Shown one piece after another: positions 5,789 through 43,260 of a stretch of DNA of 43,260 nt. The stretch lies in NCBI GenBank assembly GCA_020718585.1, contig DYRS01000002.1, positions 1-43,260 on the forward strand. Direction: 5' to 3'. The notes beneath the pieces were generated by a model, which saw only the letters and a program-made list of their open reading frames with translations, ran no database searches and had not been told where the DNA came from. How positions within the stretch are numbered: the first letter of the stretch is position 1; each line of letters starts with the position of its first letter. Made by a program: the position numbers and the translations under genes. The stretch is from Chthoniobacter flavus. Its GTDB lineage: Bacteria > Verrucomicrobiota > Verrucomicrobiia > Chthoniobacterales > Terrimicrobiaceae.

Positions 5789-5801
5789 CGCGGGGTGGGT
5801 T

Positions 5802-32881: not shown

Positions 32882-34543
32882 TCAGACCACGCGGGCGACG
32901 AGTCCGGTGAGGTAGGGGAGGAGCTGTTTTTTGCGCGAGACGACGCCGTCGAGTTTCCATGCGCACGCGCCCTCGTCGGGGAAGTCAATGAGGCGGGTGA
33001 AGCTGTGCGGGCCGCAGAGCAGGAGCACCGAGTTCTGCGAATTGACGTCGGTGATGAGCAGGGTCGTGAAAAAGTAGTTGTTCTCCGCGCGGTAGGCCTC
33101 GAGCGAGGCGACGAGCGCGTCGCGTTTTTCCGGGAGGTGCGCGAAGGTGAGCTCCTCGATCTGCGAGACGCTGAACCGGTAGCCTTGCTCCGAGTATTCC
33201 TTGCAGTCGGCGGTGATCGCCTGGGTCGGCGCCATGGTGAGGAGCGGCGAGCCGACCGAGAAAATCTCCGCGGCGAGGTCGGCCGGGTTCACCCCGCTGA
33301 TGCCTGCGAGCTCGGCCATCATCTCGCGGTCCACATCGGTCGTCGTCGGGGAGGTCAGGTTGAGCGTGTCCGAAATCATCCCGCACATCAGGAGGCCGGC
33401 GACATCTTTTGTGATCGGGACGCCGGCCTGCCGGTAGCAGGTGGCGACGATCGTGCAGGTCGAGCCGACCGGGCGGTTGAGAAAAAGGATCGGCTGGTGG
33501 GTCGGCGCGACGCCGATCCGGTGGTGGTCGATGATCTCGACGATCGGGATCTCGTGCGCCCCGCTCACCGCCTGGCTCAGCTCATTGTGGTCCATCAGCA
33601 CGAGCTGTCGGGGCACGGGCTTGAGGAAATCGCTTTTTGAGATGATCCCTTCGAGGCGTCCGTCCGGTCCGAGCACCGGAAACGCGAACTGCGCGGACAT
33701 CGCGACGTCGGACTGCGCCTCGCGCAGCGGCATATCGGCCGGGAGGCTGGTGAAATCGGGCTGGATCAGCTTTCCGGACGAGACGGCGGCGCGGGCGAGG
33801 AGAACGGTCGTCGCGGTGTCGTAGGGCGAGGAGATGAGCGCGACGCCGTGGGCCTCGGCGGCCGCGAGGACGGCCTTGTTTGGCGGAAAATTGTTGGTGA
33901 TGACGAGTGCTCTGACGCCGGCCTCGATCGAGAGGAGCTGGATGTTCCAGCGGTCGCCGACGATGAGGACGGTCGAGCCTCGGTCGAGTTCGTCGAGGCG
34001 TTTGGTGAACGTCGTGGTGTGCATCGCGGCGACGACAAGGTGGTGCGGGTGGACCTCCGTGTCGTCCGGCCCTGCGAGGAGCGTGCCGTGAAATGCCGCC
34101 CGGATGTCAGTCAGCGAGGCGTCCACCACGCGGGCCGCGCTGATCCGGTCGAGCGGCGGAAAAAGGTATTGGCTGAGCTTGAAGCCGGAGATCAGGCCGA
34201 GGCACCTCCGGGAGTCGTCCACCACCGGCAGCCCGTGGAACGTCATCTCGTTGATCCGGGTCATCGTCTCATAGATCGGGCTGCGGAAGTGCGCGCTCAC
34301 GACCTCGCGCTGCATCACATCCTCGACCCGGGGATGCACATCGCTCACAAAGACAGGAGCCTCGAACCCGAATTTTTCGAGCGCGTAATCAATCCGTTCG
34401 TTTGTGTTCCCGCAGCGCGCTGCGAGCACGTTTTTGGCACCGGTGGCGGTCTTCAGCTCGGCGTAAGCGATCGCCGAGCAGATCGCGTCCATGTCCGGGT
34501 TCCTGTGGCCGATGACGACGGTGATCATGTTTTTAAAGTTCAT
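32882..34543 (-). CDS. Family II (manganese-dependent) inorganic pyrophosphatase with CBS and DRTGG domains
   Basis: This 553-residue protein begins with the DHH-type motif [12 protein letters not shown] (His13, Asp17, Asp19). It then has an insert with two CBS-type segments (~70-130 and ~275-310) flanking a DRTGG domain (~135-250), as in nucleotide-regulated family II pyrophosphatases. The second half of the catalytic site is MDHN (about 317-320) and the DHH motif EIIDHHR (339-341). It hydrolyses pyrophosphate; CBS inserts usually bind AMP or ATP. The ATG at 34543 overlaps the hybrid kinase's stop by 11 bases; an ATG at 34528 gives the usual N-terminus [12 protein letters not shown] and may be the real start. 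Confidence 0.93.
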
Positions 34544-37500
34544 CGCCTTGGGACACCCGGTCCCTGACGCGCTCGACGACGGACTTCAGGCGGTCGAGGG
34601 TGATCGGCTTGACGACGTAGCCGTCCATGCCGGCATCGAGGCAGGCCTCGCGGTCCTCTTTAAACGCGTTGGCGGTGAGCGCGATGATTTCCGGGCGGGT
34701 GCGGTCGCCGAAATACTTTCGCATGAGCGCGGCGGCGACGAGGCCGTCCATCACGGCCATCTGGACATCCATCAAAACGAGGTCGTAGGTGCCCGCCTTG
34801 ACGGCGTCCACCGCCTCGAGCCCGTTGGCGACGATGGTCGGTTTGATTCCGACGCGGGAGAGCATCATTTTGATCACCTTCTGGTTCGTTGGGTTGTCCT
34901 CGGCGACGAGCACGCGGAGGTCGCGCGCGGGGTGCTGCGACGCGGAAACCGCAGATGCTGGTGCCGGAGGGGAGGATTTTTTGATTCCGAGAACCTTCGA
35001 GATGACCTTGAAGAGGTGGGTCGGGCGGAGCGGCTTGGTGACGACATCAGCGAAGAGGTAGGCGTCCCCCGGCGGTGCCTTTTCGACGATCGAGCTGAGA
35101 AGGACGGCCGGAATATTCGCCTTGTCCGGGATCGCCCGGATCTTCCGTGCGAGCTCAATGCCATCCATGTCGGGCATCTGGTAATCGAGGAGGAGGAGGT
35201 CGAACCCGGCGTCGGATTGAAGGGTTTCGAGCGCGGCGGTGGGTCCGTCGGCCTCGGTGGCGACCATCCCCCAGACGCGGATCTGGTCGCGGAGGAACTG
35301 GCGGTTCGTGCGGTTGTCGTCAACGATGAGCGCGCGCGCGCCCTTGAGCGACGCGAGCTGGGCGGTGGAATGCGCGGGCGGGAGTTCGCCCGGCGGCAGG
35401 GGGATTTCGATTTCAAACGTCGTGCCCTCGCCCGGGCGGCTGCGGACGGCGATCGTCCCGTGCATGAGCTTGACTAGGCGCATGCTGATCGCGAGACCGA
35501 GCCCGGTGCCGCCGAACTTGCGGGTCACCGACGAGTCGGCCTGCATGAACGGCTGGAAGAGCCTGGCCTGGACCTCGTCGCTCATGCCGATGCCGGAGTC
35601 GCGGACCAGGAACCGGATGCGCGAGTTGCCGGCGGCCTCGGCGCGCACCGAGACCTCGCCCTCGGCGGTGAACTTCACGGCATTCGAGAGCAGGTTGAGA
35701 AGGATCTGCTTGAGCCGGGTCCGGTCGCCGATCACCGACTGCGAAAGCGAATGGTCGAGCGAATACGAGAGCTCGATTTTTTTCTCTCCGGCCGGGCGGG
35801 CGAGGATCTCGAGCGGCTCGACGAGGATCTCCGCGAGGTCGAACGGGGCGTGCTCGATCTCGATCCGGCCGGCCTCGATTTTCGAGTAGTCGAGGATGTC
35901 GTTGATGAGGTCGAGGAGGGTCTCGGCGGAGGTGGTGACGGTGCCCGCGTAGTCCCGCTGCTGCGGCTCGAGGTCGGTCTCCATGAGGAGCGATGACATG
36001 CCGATGACCGCATTGAGAGGGGTTCGGATCTCGTGGCTCATCGTGGCGAGGAACGTGCTCTTCGCGCGGCTGGCCGCGTCGGCAGCCTCCTTTGCGGAGA
36101 TGAGCGCATCTTCCGAGCGCTGGAGGTCGAGGCGCGAGCTGATGAGGCTGGCGGCAGTCTCGAGCAGCGTGATCTCCTCCTCCTGCCACGCGTAGGGTAT
36201 GTGCGCGTGGTGGAGCTCAACCGCACCCCAGAACTGGCCCTTGACGAAGAGCGGCAGGTAGAGAAGCGACTTTGTGCCCATCGCCTTGAGGACGGAGGCG
36301 GCGTCGTCGGAGCCGCATTCGAGCACTCTTTTCCCGCGCGAAAGCTTGGTGACCCAGCCGGTGAGAATCCCGCTCGAATCGAGGAGGTTCCAGAATTCCT
36401 GCGACTGCGGGACCGACGCCTCTCCGGTGCGGTGCCATTCGGCGACGACGTCGAAGCTCGAGGGGGAAATCGTCCTGCCCTGAAAAAAGTGGAGGACGCG
36501 GACGCGGTCCACTCCGACTTTTTCACCGAGCAGGGCGGTGAGTTTCTCCCAGGCTTCCGGCGTGTTGAGCGGGGAGCTCAGCACGCGCTGCCCGACATCG
36601 GCGATCGCTTCGAGGAGGATCTGGCTTTTCCTCTGCTGGGAGATATCGCGATACTGCCAGAGGTAGCCGTAGCGGACCCCCTTGTCCACGATCGGCACAA
36701 AGTCGCGTGCGAGGTGGCGTCCGTCGATCATCTCAAAAATCATCCCGGTGCAGGATTTGCCCTCGGTGAGCGATTCGGCGATCGAGTTCAGAAACCCGGC
36801 GGAATCGCAGAACATGGGAGATGTCCTGGTGGCGAGCGCGTCGCAGTGCAGGCCCTGGATCGCGCGGGCCGAGACTCCGAACATCTTTTCGAACGCCGGG
36901 TTTGCAAACGTGATGATGCGCTTCGAATTTTCGACGAGCACTGCGTCGTCCATATTTTGCAGGAGCGTCGAGAACCGGCTCCTCTGGGTCGCCTCGCGCG
37001 CGGCGAGCGCATCGAGGCGGAGCCGGTTCTGCTGGAGGAGTTCCTCGCGGCCGACCGCCTGGGCGATGATCGAGAGGCAGTCGCGGAGGTCGTGGCTCAG
37101 GCTGAACGGCTTGTTGAAAAACAGTCCGATCGACCCGATGATGTCGCCTGCGAGATCCACTCCCTGGCCGACAAAGGTCTGGAAATCCTCAAGCCGGGGA
37201 TCGGCCGACCGGTCGGGGGCGGAGCCTTCGAGCAGGAGGAAATGCTCGTCGCTGCGGATGACATCGAAGCAGAGGCTGCCCGATGCCTGGCGGCTTTGCG
37301 GGTAGTTTTCGGGGGTTCCGAAGCACCCGTGCGCGACGAGACGGTCGCCCTCGAGCCTGTTGTAAACCGCGCGGTCGGCACCGAAGATCCAGCCCGCGAG
37401 CGCGGTCAGGCGCATGATGTTTTTGTCGTAGCTGTCGCCGAGCTCGAGGAGCGCGGCATTGATCCGCTGGAGGCGATGCCGCTGGTTATCGAGCGCCCGC

Positions 37501-39587
37501 TCGGCCTCGATCCGGGCGGTCACGTCGTTCTCGATCGCCATAAACCCGCTCAGGTTGCCGTCCACGTCCCGGAGCACTTGGCATTCGATTGCGACCCAGT
37601 AGGGCACGCCCGATTTGGAAAAGTTGAGGACGGTCTCGTGGAACCCGGTCGCGTCGGCAATGCCCTGGCGCATCCGGGCGACGACGTCCTTGTCGGTATC
37701 CGGCCCCTGGAGAAAAACGCCCGGCCGTTTGCCGCGGATTTCGTCGAGTGTGAACCCGGTGATGCGGGTGAACCCGGAGTTCACCCATTCGATGACGCCC
37801 GCCTTTGACGCGATGATGACGCTGTTGGTGGTGCTTTCGGCGACGAGGGCGAGACGCTTCGATTCCTCGCGCTGGTGCTCGAGCTCGAGTTCGGTTTTTT
37901 TCCGCTGGGAGATATCGAGGAGGAGTCCGGCCGCCCGAAGGTTTGCGCCCTGCGGTCCGCGCTGGATCACTCGCCCGCGGTTGAGCACCCAGGTGAATCC
38001 GCCGCCCGGGCGGGCGATGCGGAATTCGGATTCTATGTTTTCGGAGGAGCCGTCACAAATCCCGAAAAACCAGCTCGTTGCGGCGTCGCGGTCGTCGGGA
38101 TGCACCTGGGAGAGGAACTGGTCGCACGCGAGAAGGGTGGCACCCGCGCCGTCACCGGCCATGCGCGCCCATGCGCGGTCGAGCGAGATCGTGCGTGACG
38201 GGATGTCCATCTCCCATGACGCGAGGTTCGCGCCCTGGAGGGAAAGTCGGAGGCGGTCTTCGGAGGCGGCCTGGCGGGCTTTTGCTTCGAGGGCGATGTA
38301 GTTGATCGCAAACGAGCCGACGATAAAGATCGCGAAGACGAGCGTCGCGAGCATCTTTTCCTGGCGAAGGCGGGCGAGGTCGCGGCTCCAGTGTGCGGCC
38401 GTGCGGTCGAGGCCGAGGAATACCGGGTGGCCGTTTAGAGCGGCGTTTGGCACCGGGGCATACCCGCTGACCCATGTGCCCCAACGGTCGGTGTCGGGGC
38501 CTGTGGTGACCGGGGAGCCGGTCCCGAACGCCTTTATCAGGTTCTCAAACGCATCGTCATAGACGTCGCCCGCGACCGACTCGTCAATCGAGCCGAGCGG
38601 TTCGCTGTCGGCGAGAAAGACGACTTGGCCGTTGCGCATTCCGACGAGGTAGGCGAACCGGTAGCCGTCGCCAGCCTTTGTGATGAGACCGAGCCGGTGT
38701 TTGATTTCTGAGTAGGCTGGCAGCGAGACGTCGGCAGCCGAGGCAGAAAGGCGGCTCTCGAAGATGTGCGGGTCGATGGCGGCGGCGGCGAGCTGGGCCT
38801 CTTGGGCAAGCTGGCTCCGCCATTCCCGGTCGGTCCGGTTGCTGGAAAAATCGGTGAGCGGCCAACCGGCGGTGAGCACCGAGCCGAGGAGGGTGGCAAA
38901 AATCCAGCCGCGGCGGATGCCGGTGCGGCGGTCCATGACCGGGAAGGCGGCGCGTCGGCCGAGCCGGTAGGTGATCCACGCGCCAGCGATTGCGAACGCG
39001 CATCCGATCGTGGTGACGACGATCCACAGGAGGCTTGTGCTCGTGAGCATCGAGCGGAGGGTCTCGCCCTCGATCTGGCTGGATGTGAGGTAGACCGAGG
39101 GCATCGGCTTGAGCGCCGCCAGAATCGCGAGCCCGGCGGCAAGCAGGCGGGATGCCTCCCGTGCCTCCCCGCCTTCGCGCCGGGAGACCATGAGGAGAGA
39201 CAGCGCGGCACAGAGGAACCCTGGCATCCACACCGTCCAGTGGGCGGACGCCATGACGCCGGACGCCGGAGGGGCGAGCCAGAGATATGCTCCGATGACG
39301 ACGGGTGCTCCGGCAAGGAGGCGGGGGATTGCGCCGCTGGAAAACGCTGCGGCGGCTAGAATCGCAAGCGCCGAGGTAAGGACGACGAGAAGGAAGGGAG
39401 CCAGGGCGAGCGCGGCGGGTTCGGGCTGGCCGCACCAGATGAGCTGCCAGCTTCGCAGCGCAGCGGCGCAGATCAGCGCGCCGCCCAGCCATTTCCATTC
39501 CCGCCCGCCCGGATGCCGGTTCGGGATCAGGCAGACAATCGCGCAGAGGGCGAGAAGGAAGGACCAGACAAATGTGAGGTAGTCCAT
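34533..39587 (-). CDS. Large hybrid histidine kinase with multiple PAS/GAF domains and two receiver domains
   Basis: This 1684-residue sensor kinase has an N-terminal membrane region of about seven helices (residues 1-245), a periplasmic CHASE-like segment (~250-410) and a further helix at 411-432. PAS domains lie at ~445-560, ~580-690 and ~865-985, GAF-like domains at ~710-850 and ~990-1155. HisKA has [18 protein letters not shown] (His1185), HATPase_c has [15 protein letters not shown] and [10 protein letters not shown], and two receivers have Asp1468 ([13 protein letters not shown]) and Asp1607 ([13 protein letters not shown]). No Hpt domain is fused; a separate Hpt protein gene lies 33 bases upstream. 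The signal is unknown. Its end overlaps the pyrophosphatase start. Confidence 0.93.
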
Positions 39588-39620
39588 GATGTCACTGGCG
39601 GGCGAAACGGACGGAAGCGA

Positions 39621-40019
39621 TCATGCCGGGAGCGACCGGAGGTGCGGGAGGTCGTTCTCGATCGCATCGAGCGAAAGCCGGGCGATCACGAGCGCGCCCG
39701 GAAGGTAGTGCTCCCGGGCACCAAGCGGATCGGGTTCCTTTTTTTCCCACGCGAAAAGAAAAACTTCGAGGAGGAAGAGCCCGAACTGGGCGCTGGTTCC
39801 GCGGATCGAGTGGAGGTGGGCTTTGAGGGCGGTGGCGTCGGCGAGCGAGCCGAGAGATTCGAGCGTCGGGAGCAGCTCGGTGCGGAAGTCGCCCCACATC
39901 GCGCGCGCCAGCTCATCGCTTTCCTCGTTGCATGTGGAAGCAAGGAGATCGTGAACCGGAGATCCCGGTGCTGTGTGGACCAGCGGAATCTCCCTAGCGG
40001 TTGCAGTGGGGGAGCTCAT
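39621..40019 (-). CDS. Hpt-domain histidine phosphotransfer protein
   Basis: This 132-residue protein has an Hpt four-helix pattern. The phosphorylatable site is LKAHLHSIRGTSAQFG, with His70 aligned to the HxxKGxxxxxG motif (Arg replaces Lys). Helices before (ELARAMWGDFRTELLPTLESL) and after complete the bundle. The segment FLFAWEKKEPDPLGARE suggests a slightly unusual extended loop. It probably receives phosphate from the receivers of the hybrid kinase encoded 33 bases downstream and passes it on. No response regulator or DNA-binding output is seen in this window. Confidence 0.78.
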   Translation of the reverse strand: MSSPTATAREIPLVHTAPGSPVHDLLASTCNEESDELARAMWGDFRTELLPTLESLGSLADATALKAHLHSIRGTSAQFGLFLLEVFLFAWEKKEPDPLGAREHYLPGALVIARLSLDAIENDLPHLRSLPA

Positions 40020-40062: not shown

Positions 40063-41394
40063 TCACGGAGCGGCAGGATTTTTCAGGAGGCCGAGGCAGA
40101 GGAGGAAGACCGGGCTGAAGTCGCTTGGAGAGGATGCAACCCACTCGAACACCTGCTGAGCGGGGAAGAACGCGACGGTCTCGACCTCCAACGGGGCGGG
40201 AAAAAACGGTCCCTCGTGGGAGCCGGTGTAAACCTCGATGAATTCGTGGCCGGTCTGCTCGCAGGGGGTGAGTTTTCCGATGCGCACGAGCGGCGGGCAG
40301 GCGACGCCGAGCTCCTCGCGGAGCTCGCGCGCGGCGGCTTCGGGATAGTCCTCGCCGCTGTCCACATGCCCGGCGGCCGAGGCATCCCAGAGCCCGGGGT
40401 TGCGGTCCTTCCAGATCGAGCGCTTTTGAAGGAGGATCTCGCCGGCGCGGTTCGAGAGGATCATGTGGACGGCGCGGTGGCGCAAATTATTCACATGCAC
40501 AAAATCGCGGGGTTCCGCACGCAGCACCCGGTCGGAGGCATCCACGACGTCGAACATCTCGGCTCCCGACTGGGCGAGGGCCGGGCGGCGGAGCCGGGCG
40601 AGGAATTCCCATTGCGCGAGCGCGAGTTCCTCGGCGCGAACCGTCTCGGGGACGCTGAGCGCGGTGACGAGCTGCGGCCAGGTCGGCTTGAGCTCGGGCA
40701 GGAGGTTGCGGAGTTGCTTGCGGCGCTCGGAAAACCCGCGGCGCACGAGCGAATCGAAGTCAGGCTCGTCAAGCGGGCACACGTCGGCTGTCGGCCGGCG
40801 GTCGAGCGCGACGACCGCCGAGTCCACCTTCGGCACGGGGAAGAAAACCGAGGCGGGCAGGCGGCGCAGGAGCGACGTCCGCCACCGCCGGTTCACGCAC
40901 ACGGTCATCGCTCCGTAGGCCTTTGTGCGCGGCGCGGCATTCAGGCGCAGCGCGAGCTCGAGCTGAAGCGTGAGAACAAGGCGGGAAGCGGGCGAGAGGG
41001 CGGAGGTGAACTTTGCGATCAGCGGGGTCGAGACGTAATACGGAAGGTTCCCGACGACCTTCACCGGACCCCGGCCCCAGAGCTCGCGCAGGTCGAGATC
41101 CAAGGCGTCCGCATGCACGACCCGGATGTCCGGCGTGGCGAATTTCTCCGAAAGATACGCGGCGAGGCGTCCGTCTTTTTCCACAAGCGTGAGGCGGACG
41201 TCCGGGCGCGCGAGGTGGGCGGTGAGCGCGCCGAGCCCGGGGCCGATCTCGACGATGTGGTCGCCGGGGCGGATATCGAGTCCTGCGACGATCGCGCGGG
41301 CGAGGTTTTGGTCGTGCAGGAAGTTCTGCCCGAGGCTGCGCGTCGGCTCGGTGCCGAGGCGTTCGAGTGACCGCCGAATTTCGCTTAATGTCAT
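40063..41394 (-). CDS. rsmA: RsmA (KsgA) rRNA dimethyltransferase fused to a YfcD-like Nudix hydrolase
   Basis: This 443-residue fusion has two complete domains. Residues 1-265 are the 16S rRNA adenine dimethyltransferase RsmA: start RRSLERLGTEPTRSLGQNFL, SAM-binding VEIGPGLGALT (49-57) and catalytic NLPY (116-119). Residues ~280-443 are a Nudix hydrolase of the IPP-isomerase/YfcD-like branch: VVDASDRVLRAEPRDFVHV, RHRAVH, LLQKRSIWKDRNPGLWD and an intact Nudix box from Gly342 to Val364 (GHVDSGEDYPEAAARELREE plus LGV). Both active sites look intact and no stop or frameshift separates them. RsmA dimethylates A1518/A1519 of 16S rRNA. The Nudix substrate is unknown. Confidence 0.94.
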   Translation of the reverse strand: MTLSEIRRSLERLGTEPTRSLGQNFLHDQNLARAIVAGLDIRPGDHIVEIGPGLGALTAHLARPDVRLTLVEKDGRLAAYLSEKFATPDIRVVHADALDLDLRELWGRGPVKVVGNLPYYVSTPLIAKFTSALSPASRLVLTLQLELALRLNAAPRTKAYGAMTVCVNRRWRTSLLRRLPASVFFPVPKVDSAVVALDRRPTADVCPLDEPDFDSLVRRGFSERRKQLRNLLPELKPTWPQLVTALSVPETVRAEELALAQWEFLARLRRPALAQSGAEMFDVVDASDRVLRAEPRDFVHVNNLRHRAVHMILSNRAGEILLQKRSIWKDRNPGLWDASAAGHVDSGEDYPEAAARELREELGVACPPLVRIGKLTPCEQTGHEFIEVYTGSHEGPFFPAPLEVETVAFFPAQQVFEWVASSPSDFSPVFLLCLGLLKNPAAP

Positions 41395-41495: not shown

Positions 41496-43079
41496 CTAGT
41501 ATTTCCCTTGGGCAGTCACCGCAGGAAAGTCGTCGGTGCGGAACGGTGAGGCAGGAAGCCCGGCACCGTTGGCGAGGTTGCAGGTCGGGTTCTGCGCCCA
41601 TGCGTAGCGCACGGCGACCGGAGACGGAACTTTGTCCGACCGGACGACGACCGCGTCGCCCTCGATCTTGGCGTCCGCCCAGAACCATTTTTTGTCCTGG
41701 CCGCAGATTGCGAAGCCTTCGAGCTGGCTGTTGGGAGAGTTGCGCACGAGCGGTGCCGACTCTCCGGTTTGCGATTTGACATCGTATTTTTCAGGGAGCG
41801 GGGAGGCGGCGAGCCCACCGTCGGTGTGTCGGAATGTGACCGTTGCCGTGCCATTTTCGATTTTCATGGAATCGAAGACCGGGCCGGAGAAGGCGATCTT
41901 TTTCCCGTGTTCCTTGGCGAGCGCAATGCGCGCCAGTCGCTCGCCGACGGATTTTTTGTTTCGGGGGTGGATATTGCCGGACTCGCCGATATCAATGAGG
42001 ACGGCCTGGCCGGTGGCGGGGAGGGCGAGGGTTAGGGATTGGGCCTCGCGGAGCTCCGCCCATCCGCATTCCTCGGGCTCCGGATTTTTCGGCATAAAGT
42101 TGGCGAGCTGGCAGAAGTAGAACGGAAAATCTCCACGTCCCCACTGCTTTCGCCAGTCGGAGATGAGGAGGGGGAACGCCTTGCGGTATTGGATCGCGCG
42201 CCCGGCATTGCTCTCGCCCTGATACCAGATGGCTCCGCTGATCGCGTAATTGATGATCGGGTGGATCATGGCGTTATAGAGAAAGCCCGCAGTATCCTGC
42301 GGGCCCGGGGGAGTGCCGGCGGGAGGTTTGGGAGCGGCGGCCCGCTTTTCCGCAGCGACGGGAGGAAACTCTTGCTCCGCCTTCGCGAGACCCGGGTATT
42401 CCGCGATCTGCTTCCGGATGCGTTCGGAGGCGGCCTTGAGATCGGGATCCGAGTCGAGTGCCTCCAGGCTCGTCCATGCCTCGGAGGGGGTTCCTCCCCA
42501 CGACGAATTCACGATCCCGACCGGAACCTTGACCTCGCTCTGAAGGCTTTTACCAAAATAATACCCGACCGCGCTGAAGTCGCCGGCCGTCTCCGGTCCG
42601 GCGACCGTCCACCTTCCCTTGAGCTCGTCGAGCGGGGTTGCCGAGGTGTTTTTTTCCACCAGGAACTGCCGGAGAAACGGGTTTGCGGAGGACGCGATTT
42701 CCTGTTCGGCATCGCGGGTGTTCCTGAGTCTCAATTCCATGTTCGACTGGCCGGAGGCGATCCAGACCTCGCCGACGAGGACGTCGGCAAGCGAGATTTT
42801 ATTCTTCCCCTCGACCGACATTTCAAACGGCCCCGGCGGGGAATCCTTCAGGTCAAGAACTGCGATCCACTTCCCTTCGGCGTCGGCCTTGGCGGCGGCG
42901 GAAGTGCCGTTCAGGGAAATTTTGACATCCTCGCCCGGATCAGCCCAGCCCCAGAGCGGAACTTTCGCGGAGCGCTCCAGTACCATGTGGTCGGAGATGA
43001 TTGCGGGAAGTTTGACGTCGGCCGACAGCGGCCCGGAGGCGGCGGCGACAAGCGCGACGATGGTGAGAATTTTTTTCAT
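41496..43079 (-). CDS. Sialate O-acetylesterase-like exported esterase
   Basis: This 527-residue SGNH-type esterase has a signal peptide (MKKILTIVALVAAASGPLSA). Next comes a beta-rich N-terminal domain (LPAIISDHMVLERSAKVPLWGWADPGE), typical of this family. The catalytic block is EVWIASGQSNMEL (Ser112); further blocks are VGIVNSSWGGTPSEAW and IWYQGESN, and the C-terminal GNIHPRNK carries the likely catalytic His. It would remove acetyl groups from acetylated sugars outside the cytoplasm. A Pro/Ala-rich linker occurs at about residues 240-265. The start at 43079 begins the signal peptide; codons further upstream look non-coding. In Verrucomicrobiota such esterases often serve polysaccharide breakdown. 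Confidence 0.9.
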   Translation of the reverse strand: MKKILTIVALVAAASGPLSADVKLPAIISDHMVLERSAKVPLWGWADPGEDVKISLNGTSAAAKADAEGKWIAVLDLKDSPPGPFEMSVEGKNKISLADVLVGEVWIASGQSNMELRLRNTRDAEQEIASSANPFLRQFLVEKNTSATPLDELKGRWTVAGPETAGDFSAVGYYFGKSLQSEVKVPVGIVNSSWGGTPSEAWTSLEALDSDPDLKAASERIRKQIAEYPGLAKAEQEFPPVAAEKRAAAPKPPAGTPPGPQDTAGFLYNAMIHPIINYAISGAIWYQGESNAGRAIQYRKAFPLLISDWRKQWGRGDFPFYFCQLANFMPKNPEPEECGWAELREAQSLTLALPATGQAVLIDIGESGNIHPRNKKSVGERLARIALAKEHGKKIAFSGPVFDSMKIENGTATVTFRHTDGGLAASPLPEKYDVKSQTGESAPLVRNSPNSQLEGFAICGQDKKWFWADAKIEGDAVVVRSDKVPSPVAVRYAWAQNPTCNLANGAGLPASPFRTDDFPAVTAQGKY

Positions 43080-43211
43080 GGATGAAGAGCGGCGCGGACA
43101 TTCGCGCGGCGCGTGCAAATTATGGAGAATCACTTGGATGTTTGCCAGTTCAGATTCACAAAATTGCGCCAAACCCGGCTTGCGCGGAAGCCGGTCCGGT
43201 GGCATGATCCC

Positions 43212-43260
43212 ATGGTCCATCAAACGTTCGGCGTGCCGAACGTCCATCCCGTCTATCCCG
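43212..43260 (+). CDS. Possible start of a gene cut by the window end
   Basis: An ATG opens a frame of 16 codons to the edge (MVHQTFGVPNVHPVYP). A second ATG at 43204 in another frame is also possible. No Shine-Dalgarno is clear and too little is visible to name it. A near-perfect inverted repeat overlaps these codons. Confidence 0.2.
   Translation, partial: MVHQTFGVPNVHPVYP
43224..43243. repeat. Inverted repeat with 9-bp arms
   Basis: Arms acgttcggc (43224-43232) and gccgaacgt (43235-43243) are exact reverse complements with a 2-base centre. Size and symmetry fit an operator for a dimeric regulator, but it overlaps the possible coding start at the window edge. Confidence 0.6.

Follow-up and report, generated by a model that had tools for sequence, protein, structure and literature searches.

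An RsmA-Nudix fusion gene of Chthoniobacter flavus and its repeatedly fused relatives across the class

RsmA is a checkpoint of 30S assembly that methylates h45 at a late stage of the process, and few RNA enzymes are more conserved; why is it joined to a Nudix enzyme in one polypeptide? The question is raised by a gene in a 43,260-nucleotide stretch of Chthoniobacter flavus DNA (contig DYRS01000002.1; hereafter the window), where the initial annotation had recognised two complete enzymes in one frame. Our analysis bears this out: the translation of the minus-strand ORF at 40063..41394 matches TIGR00755 with 213 bits and PF00293 with 73.7 bits, and the SAM loop EIGPGLG, the NLPY motif and the perfect Nudix box G342-V364 are all present as described. 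By its sequence, the 443-aa ORF is a complete RsmA/KsgA followed by a complete Nudix domain, a predicted bifunctional protein with the following features:

40063..41394, minus strand: rsmA-nudix fusion gene, 443 aa, ATG start, single unbroken ORF.
40591..41394, minus strand: predicted RsmA/KsgA 16S rRNA A1518/A1519 dimethyltransferase half, residues 1-268 (TIGR00755; KsgA matches in the PDB by sequence and fold).
41230..41250, minus strand: SAM-binding loop EIGPGLG, residues 49-55 (E49, G51 and G53 invariant in 101/101 RsmA sequences and E. coli KsgA).
41038..41049, minus strand: NLPY catalytic motif, residues 116-119 (N116, P118 and Y119 invariant in all sequences, likewise in KsgA).
40561..40590, minus strand: short linker, residues 269-278, differing among relatives (junction alignment; drop in pLDDT).
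40066..40560, minus strand: putative Nudix hydrolase half of the YfcD/IPP isomerase (IDI) branch, residues 279-443 (PF00293; profile and fold matches).
40303..40371, minus strand: Nudix box G342-V364, canonical GX5EX7REUXEEXGU (R356, E357, E360 and E361 invariant in 99/99 sequences, fused and unfused).
40366..40497, minus strand: putative IDI-type metal ligands H300, H306 and H343 with diphosphate-side R325 and K329 (alignment to IDI).
40243..40245, minus strand: E384, aligned with the catalytic/metal Glu of IDI (invariant in 99/99; Val in YfcD).
40372..40374, minus strand: A341, opposite the catalytic Cys of IDI, which the window protein lacks (IDI alignment).

Each half was compared with known families. 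In a profile search TIGR00755 (ksgA) matched residues 17-265 with 213.3 bits against a cut-off of 171 (E = 3.5e-63) and PF00398 matched residues 19-238; E. coli KsgA structures in the PDB were matched by both sequence and fold, and for the Erm models listed the window protein fell below each model's own cut-off. E49, G51, G53, D96, N116, P118 and Y119 were invariant across 101 RsmA sequences. With a full-length match, a common fold and all SAM-binding and NLPY residues kept, the RsmA half should dimethylate A1518/A1519 of 16S rRNA; the difference from known RsmA/KsgA is the additional C-terminal Nudix enzyme. An AlphaFold (AF2) model of the whole fusion, made from 36 fused homologues, had a mean pLDDT of 94.5 and a pTM of 0.91, with confidence dipping only at the linker near residue 275 (pLDDT 75, block ~271-280) and in the last residues. 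When the whole protein was used in a PDB fold search, the best 50 matches were RsmA-type chains, each covering one half, and none of these 50 covered both.

The distribution of the fusion shows that it is no rare oddity of one genome. Among 384 sampled genomes of the class, 154 matched at E<=1e-60, nearly all of them at full length in one frame (~150). We also surveyed the 58 genomes nearest to the window, which belong to its order (Chthoniobacterales-type), and found a recognisable RsmA in 52, with both halves in one open frame in 50 of the 52; the possibility that the two domains are separate ORFs in all close relatives thus proved false, the nearest relatives having one open frame. Of the two that depart from this, G020 has a frameshift, and the apparent RsmA without Nudix in G022 lies at a likely chimeric contig end, where unrelated AT-rich sequence begins after residue 264. 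On the latter contig (C110; L271) the DNA switches abruptly, from ~base 5800 and inside the fusion gene, to AT-rich, stop-rich sequence, and the contig is a probable chimeric assembly. Six further genomes of the 58 had neither half. The order genomes without the fusion (G014, G026, G036, G038, G044, G055 and G154) had no RsmA over the cut-off; because none does, we read these seven as missing loci or losses and rejected them as counter-examples. Both sampled genomes of family f2 in the same order (G026 and G036; 95 and 94% complete) have neither RsmA over the cut-off nor the Nudix partner, possibly a joint loss of an otherwise near-universal enzyme and its partner.

Named records with the same architecture include the isolate Chthoniobacter flavus Ellin428 (L071) and Candidatus Udaeobacter (L098). 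The fused families include f15 (genus g29; 2.2-3.5 Mb, several finished chromosomes), which would fit Akkermansia. Two single-contig 0.9-Mb genomes (G031 and G040), which would fit nematode endosymbionts of the Xiphinematobacter type, keep the fusion and have two Nudix genes only, one being that within the fusion. The best 80 matches of a contig search were all records of Verrucomicrobiota type, and a plasmid search yielded only ~30% identical YfcD, IDI or NUDIX genes. We found nothing relevant to the fusion or the pair in the published literature.

To place the fusion events, a tree was built from both halves in 90 genomes, and the fused proteins fell into three separate sets. The first is a 35-row clade made up of the window's order with f15 and f35. 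The second consists of five f14 genomes, whose sister G066 is unfused with the genes adjacent, and the third is G157 (f37), its sister G133 having separate genes that overlap at ATGA; the f37 fusion is now found in three genomes (G157, G344 and G383). A tree in which all fused rows were held together was rejected (p-AU 6e-12), with 3 changes counted, or 4 with G354, a fourth case that is sister to unfused G085 (100/100) and that may be a sequencing frameshift because it is a single genome. At least three separate fusions are needed, four counting the single-genome G354; a single fusion in the ancestor with many later splits is a possible alternative, at the cost of more steps. Mean identity within the main fused clade was 49% for the RsmA half and 48% for the Nudix half. 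For each half the dN/dS ratio was about 0.05-0.08 in two groups; in the 0.9-Mb genomes, which gave one pair, it was 0.16 (RsmA) and 0.21 (Nudix). All catalytic residues are kept in the two halves, which are under similar purifying selection and apparently active.

Gene arrangements across the class indicate that the pairing predates the fusion. The Nudix partner is single-copy in 135/141 class genomes, and other classes in the phylum sample have only distant, patchily distributed YfcD-like genes (<=91.5 bits), none of which was seen beside rsmA. In 22 unfused class genomes rsmA and nudix share a contig, and in 20 of those 22 (20/141 class genomes; 14 families) they lie within 200 nt of each other on the same strand with rsmA first; 7 of the 20 adjacent pairs have a 4-nt start/stop overlap. 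The initially suggested link between subunit maturation and hydrolysis survives here as a genuine evolutionary association: many lineages encode the two genes side by side, and fusion has occurred at least three times. It is not an obligatory link, because many class families have a stand-alone nudix away from rsmA. At two loci (L188 in G060 and L277 in G325) rsmA and nudix stand in one frame with a single stop between them (TAG and TAA, respectively), in what looks like an intermediate state from operon to fusion.

Genes flanking the pair vary by clade, with queE and an aminotransferase in one and a phosphatase-like membrane gene in another. In one unfused clade the order is queE, class III aminotransferase, rsmA, usually then nudix (L204, L205, L207, L208, L213, L228, L232, L253 and L254); queE makes a precursor of modified RNA bases. 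We considered conserved neighbours as a clue to function and rejected them, as queE and the class III aminotransferase precede rsmA in that unfused clade only. No recurrent neighbour, upstream or otherwise, was found across the fused clades, and none recurred beside stand-alone Nudix copies. Since the flanks vary and the stand-alone copies have no recurrent neighbour, rsmA is the one recurrent partner.

What the Nudix half might hydrolyse was approached through its family. PF00293 (NUDIX) covers residues 305-417 with 73.7 bits against a cut-off of 21.1. Its profile matches to solved structures were led by YfcD (2fkb, 1.8e-31), followed by DR_0079 (4e-27) and IDI (2e-22), and a fold search with the Nudix half alone again put 2fkb first (TM 0.86), then IPP isomerases and DR_0079; 2fkb is the closest PDB chain by sequence also. 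Neither of the closest models came near its cut-off: YfcD (equivalog PRK15393.1) scored 83 bits against 152 and IPP isomerase 73.5 bits against 127. Type 1 IPP isomerase TIGR02150 scored 46.1 bits against 105.8. The label "YfcD/IPP-isomerase-like" in the initial annotation is therefore apt for the closest models and PDB chain, but the protein is no ordinary YfcD, as it has the IDI His/His/His/Glu set without the isomerase Cys.

Across 99 sequences, R356, E357, E360, E361, H300, H306, R307, H310, K329, G342, H343, E384 and E403 were invariant, and R325 was at 100% in each group compared. H300, H306, H343 and E384 align with the metal-site His/His/His/Glu of IDI, an enzyme whose catalytic Cys is Cys67 in E. 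coli numbering. YfcD of E. coli (PDB 2fkb), a protein of unknown function with 29% identity, has R, H and V at the three His positions and lacks equivalents of H300, H343 and E384. Type 1 IDI (TIGR02150, PDB 1hx3) shares the branch, and its three metal-site His, one Glu and basic diphosphate-side residues align with the window protein; in contrast to IDI, the window Nudix half lacks the catalytic Cys and has a canonical hydrolase box. The position of that Cys is Ala in 52/52 fused and Ser in 42/47 unfused proteins, and 97/99 homologues have no Cys there. We dropped Ala as a mark of fusion because G354, a fusion found later, has Ser.

A canonical Nudix box is a mark of hydrolases, and IDIs depart from it (PMC5389931); because the box is canonical, we read the Nudix half as a hydrolase and not an isomerase. 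DR_0079 of Deinococcus radiodurans (PDB 2o5f), the second-best profile match among solved structures, is a hydrolase that prefers cytidine di/triphosphates to go by the study title that PMC5389931 cites; it differs in having other residues at the His positions (profile alignment) and a Nudix box that ends in Asn and not Gly (PMC5389931). The genomes tested encode IspH, so they make both IPP and DMAPP, and the eight genomes tested for type 1 or type 2 IDI had none over the cut-off, which leaves the Nudix half as the sole IDI-like protein of the tested genomes. AtNudx3 of Arabidopsis likewise has its Nudix domain within a two-domain protein, in which the partner is a peptidase and not RsmA; presumably it has a similar HRAVH...GH...E pattern, which serves as a lead only. 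This Nudix enzyme dephosphorylates IPP and DMAPP (PMC6779861).

From family branch and metal-site residues, we infer that a small diphosphate is the substrate. Our first candidates are prenyl diphosphates; pyrimidine nucleoside di/triphosphates come second, given that DR_0079 of the same branch favours cytidine nucleotides. A damaged nucleotide or an alarmone had been proposed earlier; we found nothing specific to either, and the family relations favour prenyl diphosphates or pyrimidine nucleotides at least as much. What these comparisons bring to notice is a Nudix family that the class as a whole conserves in single copy.

The explanation that we prefer, at a probability of about 0.5, is a bifunctional protein in which a hydrolase of prenyl or nucleoside diphosphates is held at a fixed 1:1 output with 30S maturation. 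A complete RsmA would dimethylate A1518/A1519 and, across a short linker, a complete YfcD/IDI-branch Nudix enzyme would hydrolyse a prenyl diphosphate (IPP/DMAPP to monophosphates, cf. AtNudx3) or a pyrimidine nucleotide (cf. DR_0079). The pair, rsmA first and Nudix second, would be old and repeatedly kept, often with a 4-nt overlap, and would have become one protein at least three times. Coupled or fused synthesis would make the amount of hydrolase equal that of RsmA, and through this fixed 1:1 ratio the pool of a growth metabolite would be set in step with 30S maturation.

Other ksgA operons likewise encode RsmA together with a hydrolase of nucleotides or an enzyme of the isoprenoid pathway (rsmA-apaG-apaH of E. 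coli, apaH encoding an Ap4A hydrolase, and rpfB-ksgA-ispE of M. tuberculosis), although there the proteins are separate and the partner families unrelated. We know of no explanation for why RsmA is co-encoded with metabolic enzymes such as ApaH in E. coli and IspE in M. tuberculosis. We find fixed stoichiometry between an enzyme of ribosome maturation and one that sets a metabolite pool the most economical reading; this has been argued for the M. tuberculosis genes, which are co-transcribed (PMC6009663), and the E. coli cluster would allow it. An extension that we consider unlikely is that throughout the class, translational coupling and repeated fusion tie 30S maturation to a hydrolase dedicated to prenyl or nucleoside diphosphates, with one bifunctional protein co-adjusting ribosome output and isoprenoid (cell-wall carrier) supply. 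That RsmA was fused to the same Nudix enzyme at least three times strongly hints, on evolutionary grounds, at the management of some metabolite alongside ribosome maturation, and with both activities in one protein and separately mutable, the link is testable.

A serious rival, to which we give a tentative but real chance, is that the fusion is neutral or concerns expression only, the halves being independent with only their dosage in common. Repeated fusion by small indels would be expected because the operon genes had overlapping start/stop codons: the later fusions nest beside unfused adjacent pairs (sisters G133, G066 and G085), their gene order matches that of the fusion, and overlaps of 4 nt are frequent. 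The short, variable linkers and the persistence of stand-alone Nudix copies far from rsmA in many families fit this explanation as well, and adjacent genes can fuse without functional need. On the other hand, the pair is kept across clades in which the other neighbours have changed, no reliable reversal after fusion was seen in the window's order, and in the predicted structure the two domains form a single compact body (pTM 0.91).

We think it quite improbable that the Nudix half acts on ribosome or nucleotide signals, by removing 5' pyrophosphate from RNA or by clearing Ap4A or (p)ppGpp at the immature 30S. The E. coli cluster of rsmA with apaG and apaH is in keeping with such a role, and fusion to a 30S-binding enzyme would bring a hydrolase to the subunit; however, the Nudix half is closest to YfcD, DR_0079 and IDI and not to RppH or the Ap4A hydrolases, and the IDI-type His/Glu site, which to our knowledge nucleotide-signal Nudix enzymes are not known to require, is strictly kept. 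An unusual IPP isomerase replacing a missing IDI would fit the aligned metal-site residues and the eight tested genomes with no type 1/2 IDI over the cut-off, but it is very unlikely: nearly all homologues have Ala or Ser, not Cys, at the catalytic position, the hydrolase box is canonical and absent from IDIs (PMC5389931), and IspH already gives IPP and DMAPP. Lastly, the window assembly is fragmented (345 contigs), but an artefact of sequencing or assembly, a chance join or a frame error deserves next to no credence, being refuted by the same open frame in ~150 class genomes, among them the isolate Chthoniobacter flavus Ellin428 and finished genomes of a single contig.

In the window itself, the gene upstream of the fusion (41496-43247, minus strand) encodes a sialic-acid-specific acetylesterase-like protein (SASA). 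Directly downstream (39621-40019, minus strand) lies a small Hpt-like protein, with a Pfam Hpt score of 20.5 bits that is under the cut-off of 24.6. The downstream region (34533-40019, minus strand) also encodes a 1684-aa hybrid histidine kinase with PAS, GAF, HisKA, HATPase and two receiver domains; the Hpt-like protein and the kinase may form a phosphorelay pair.
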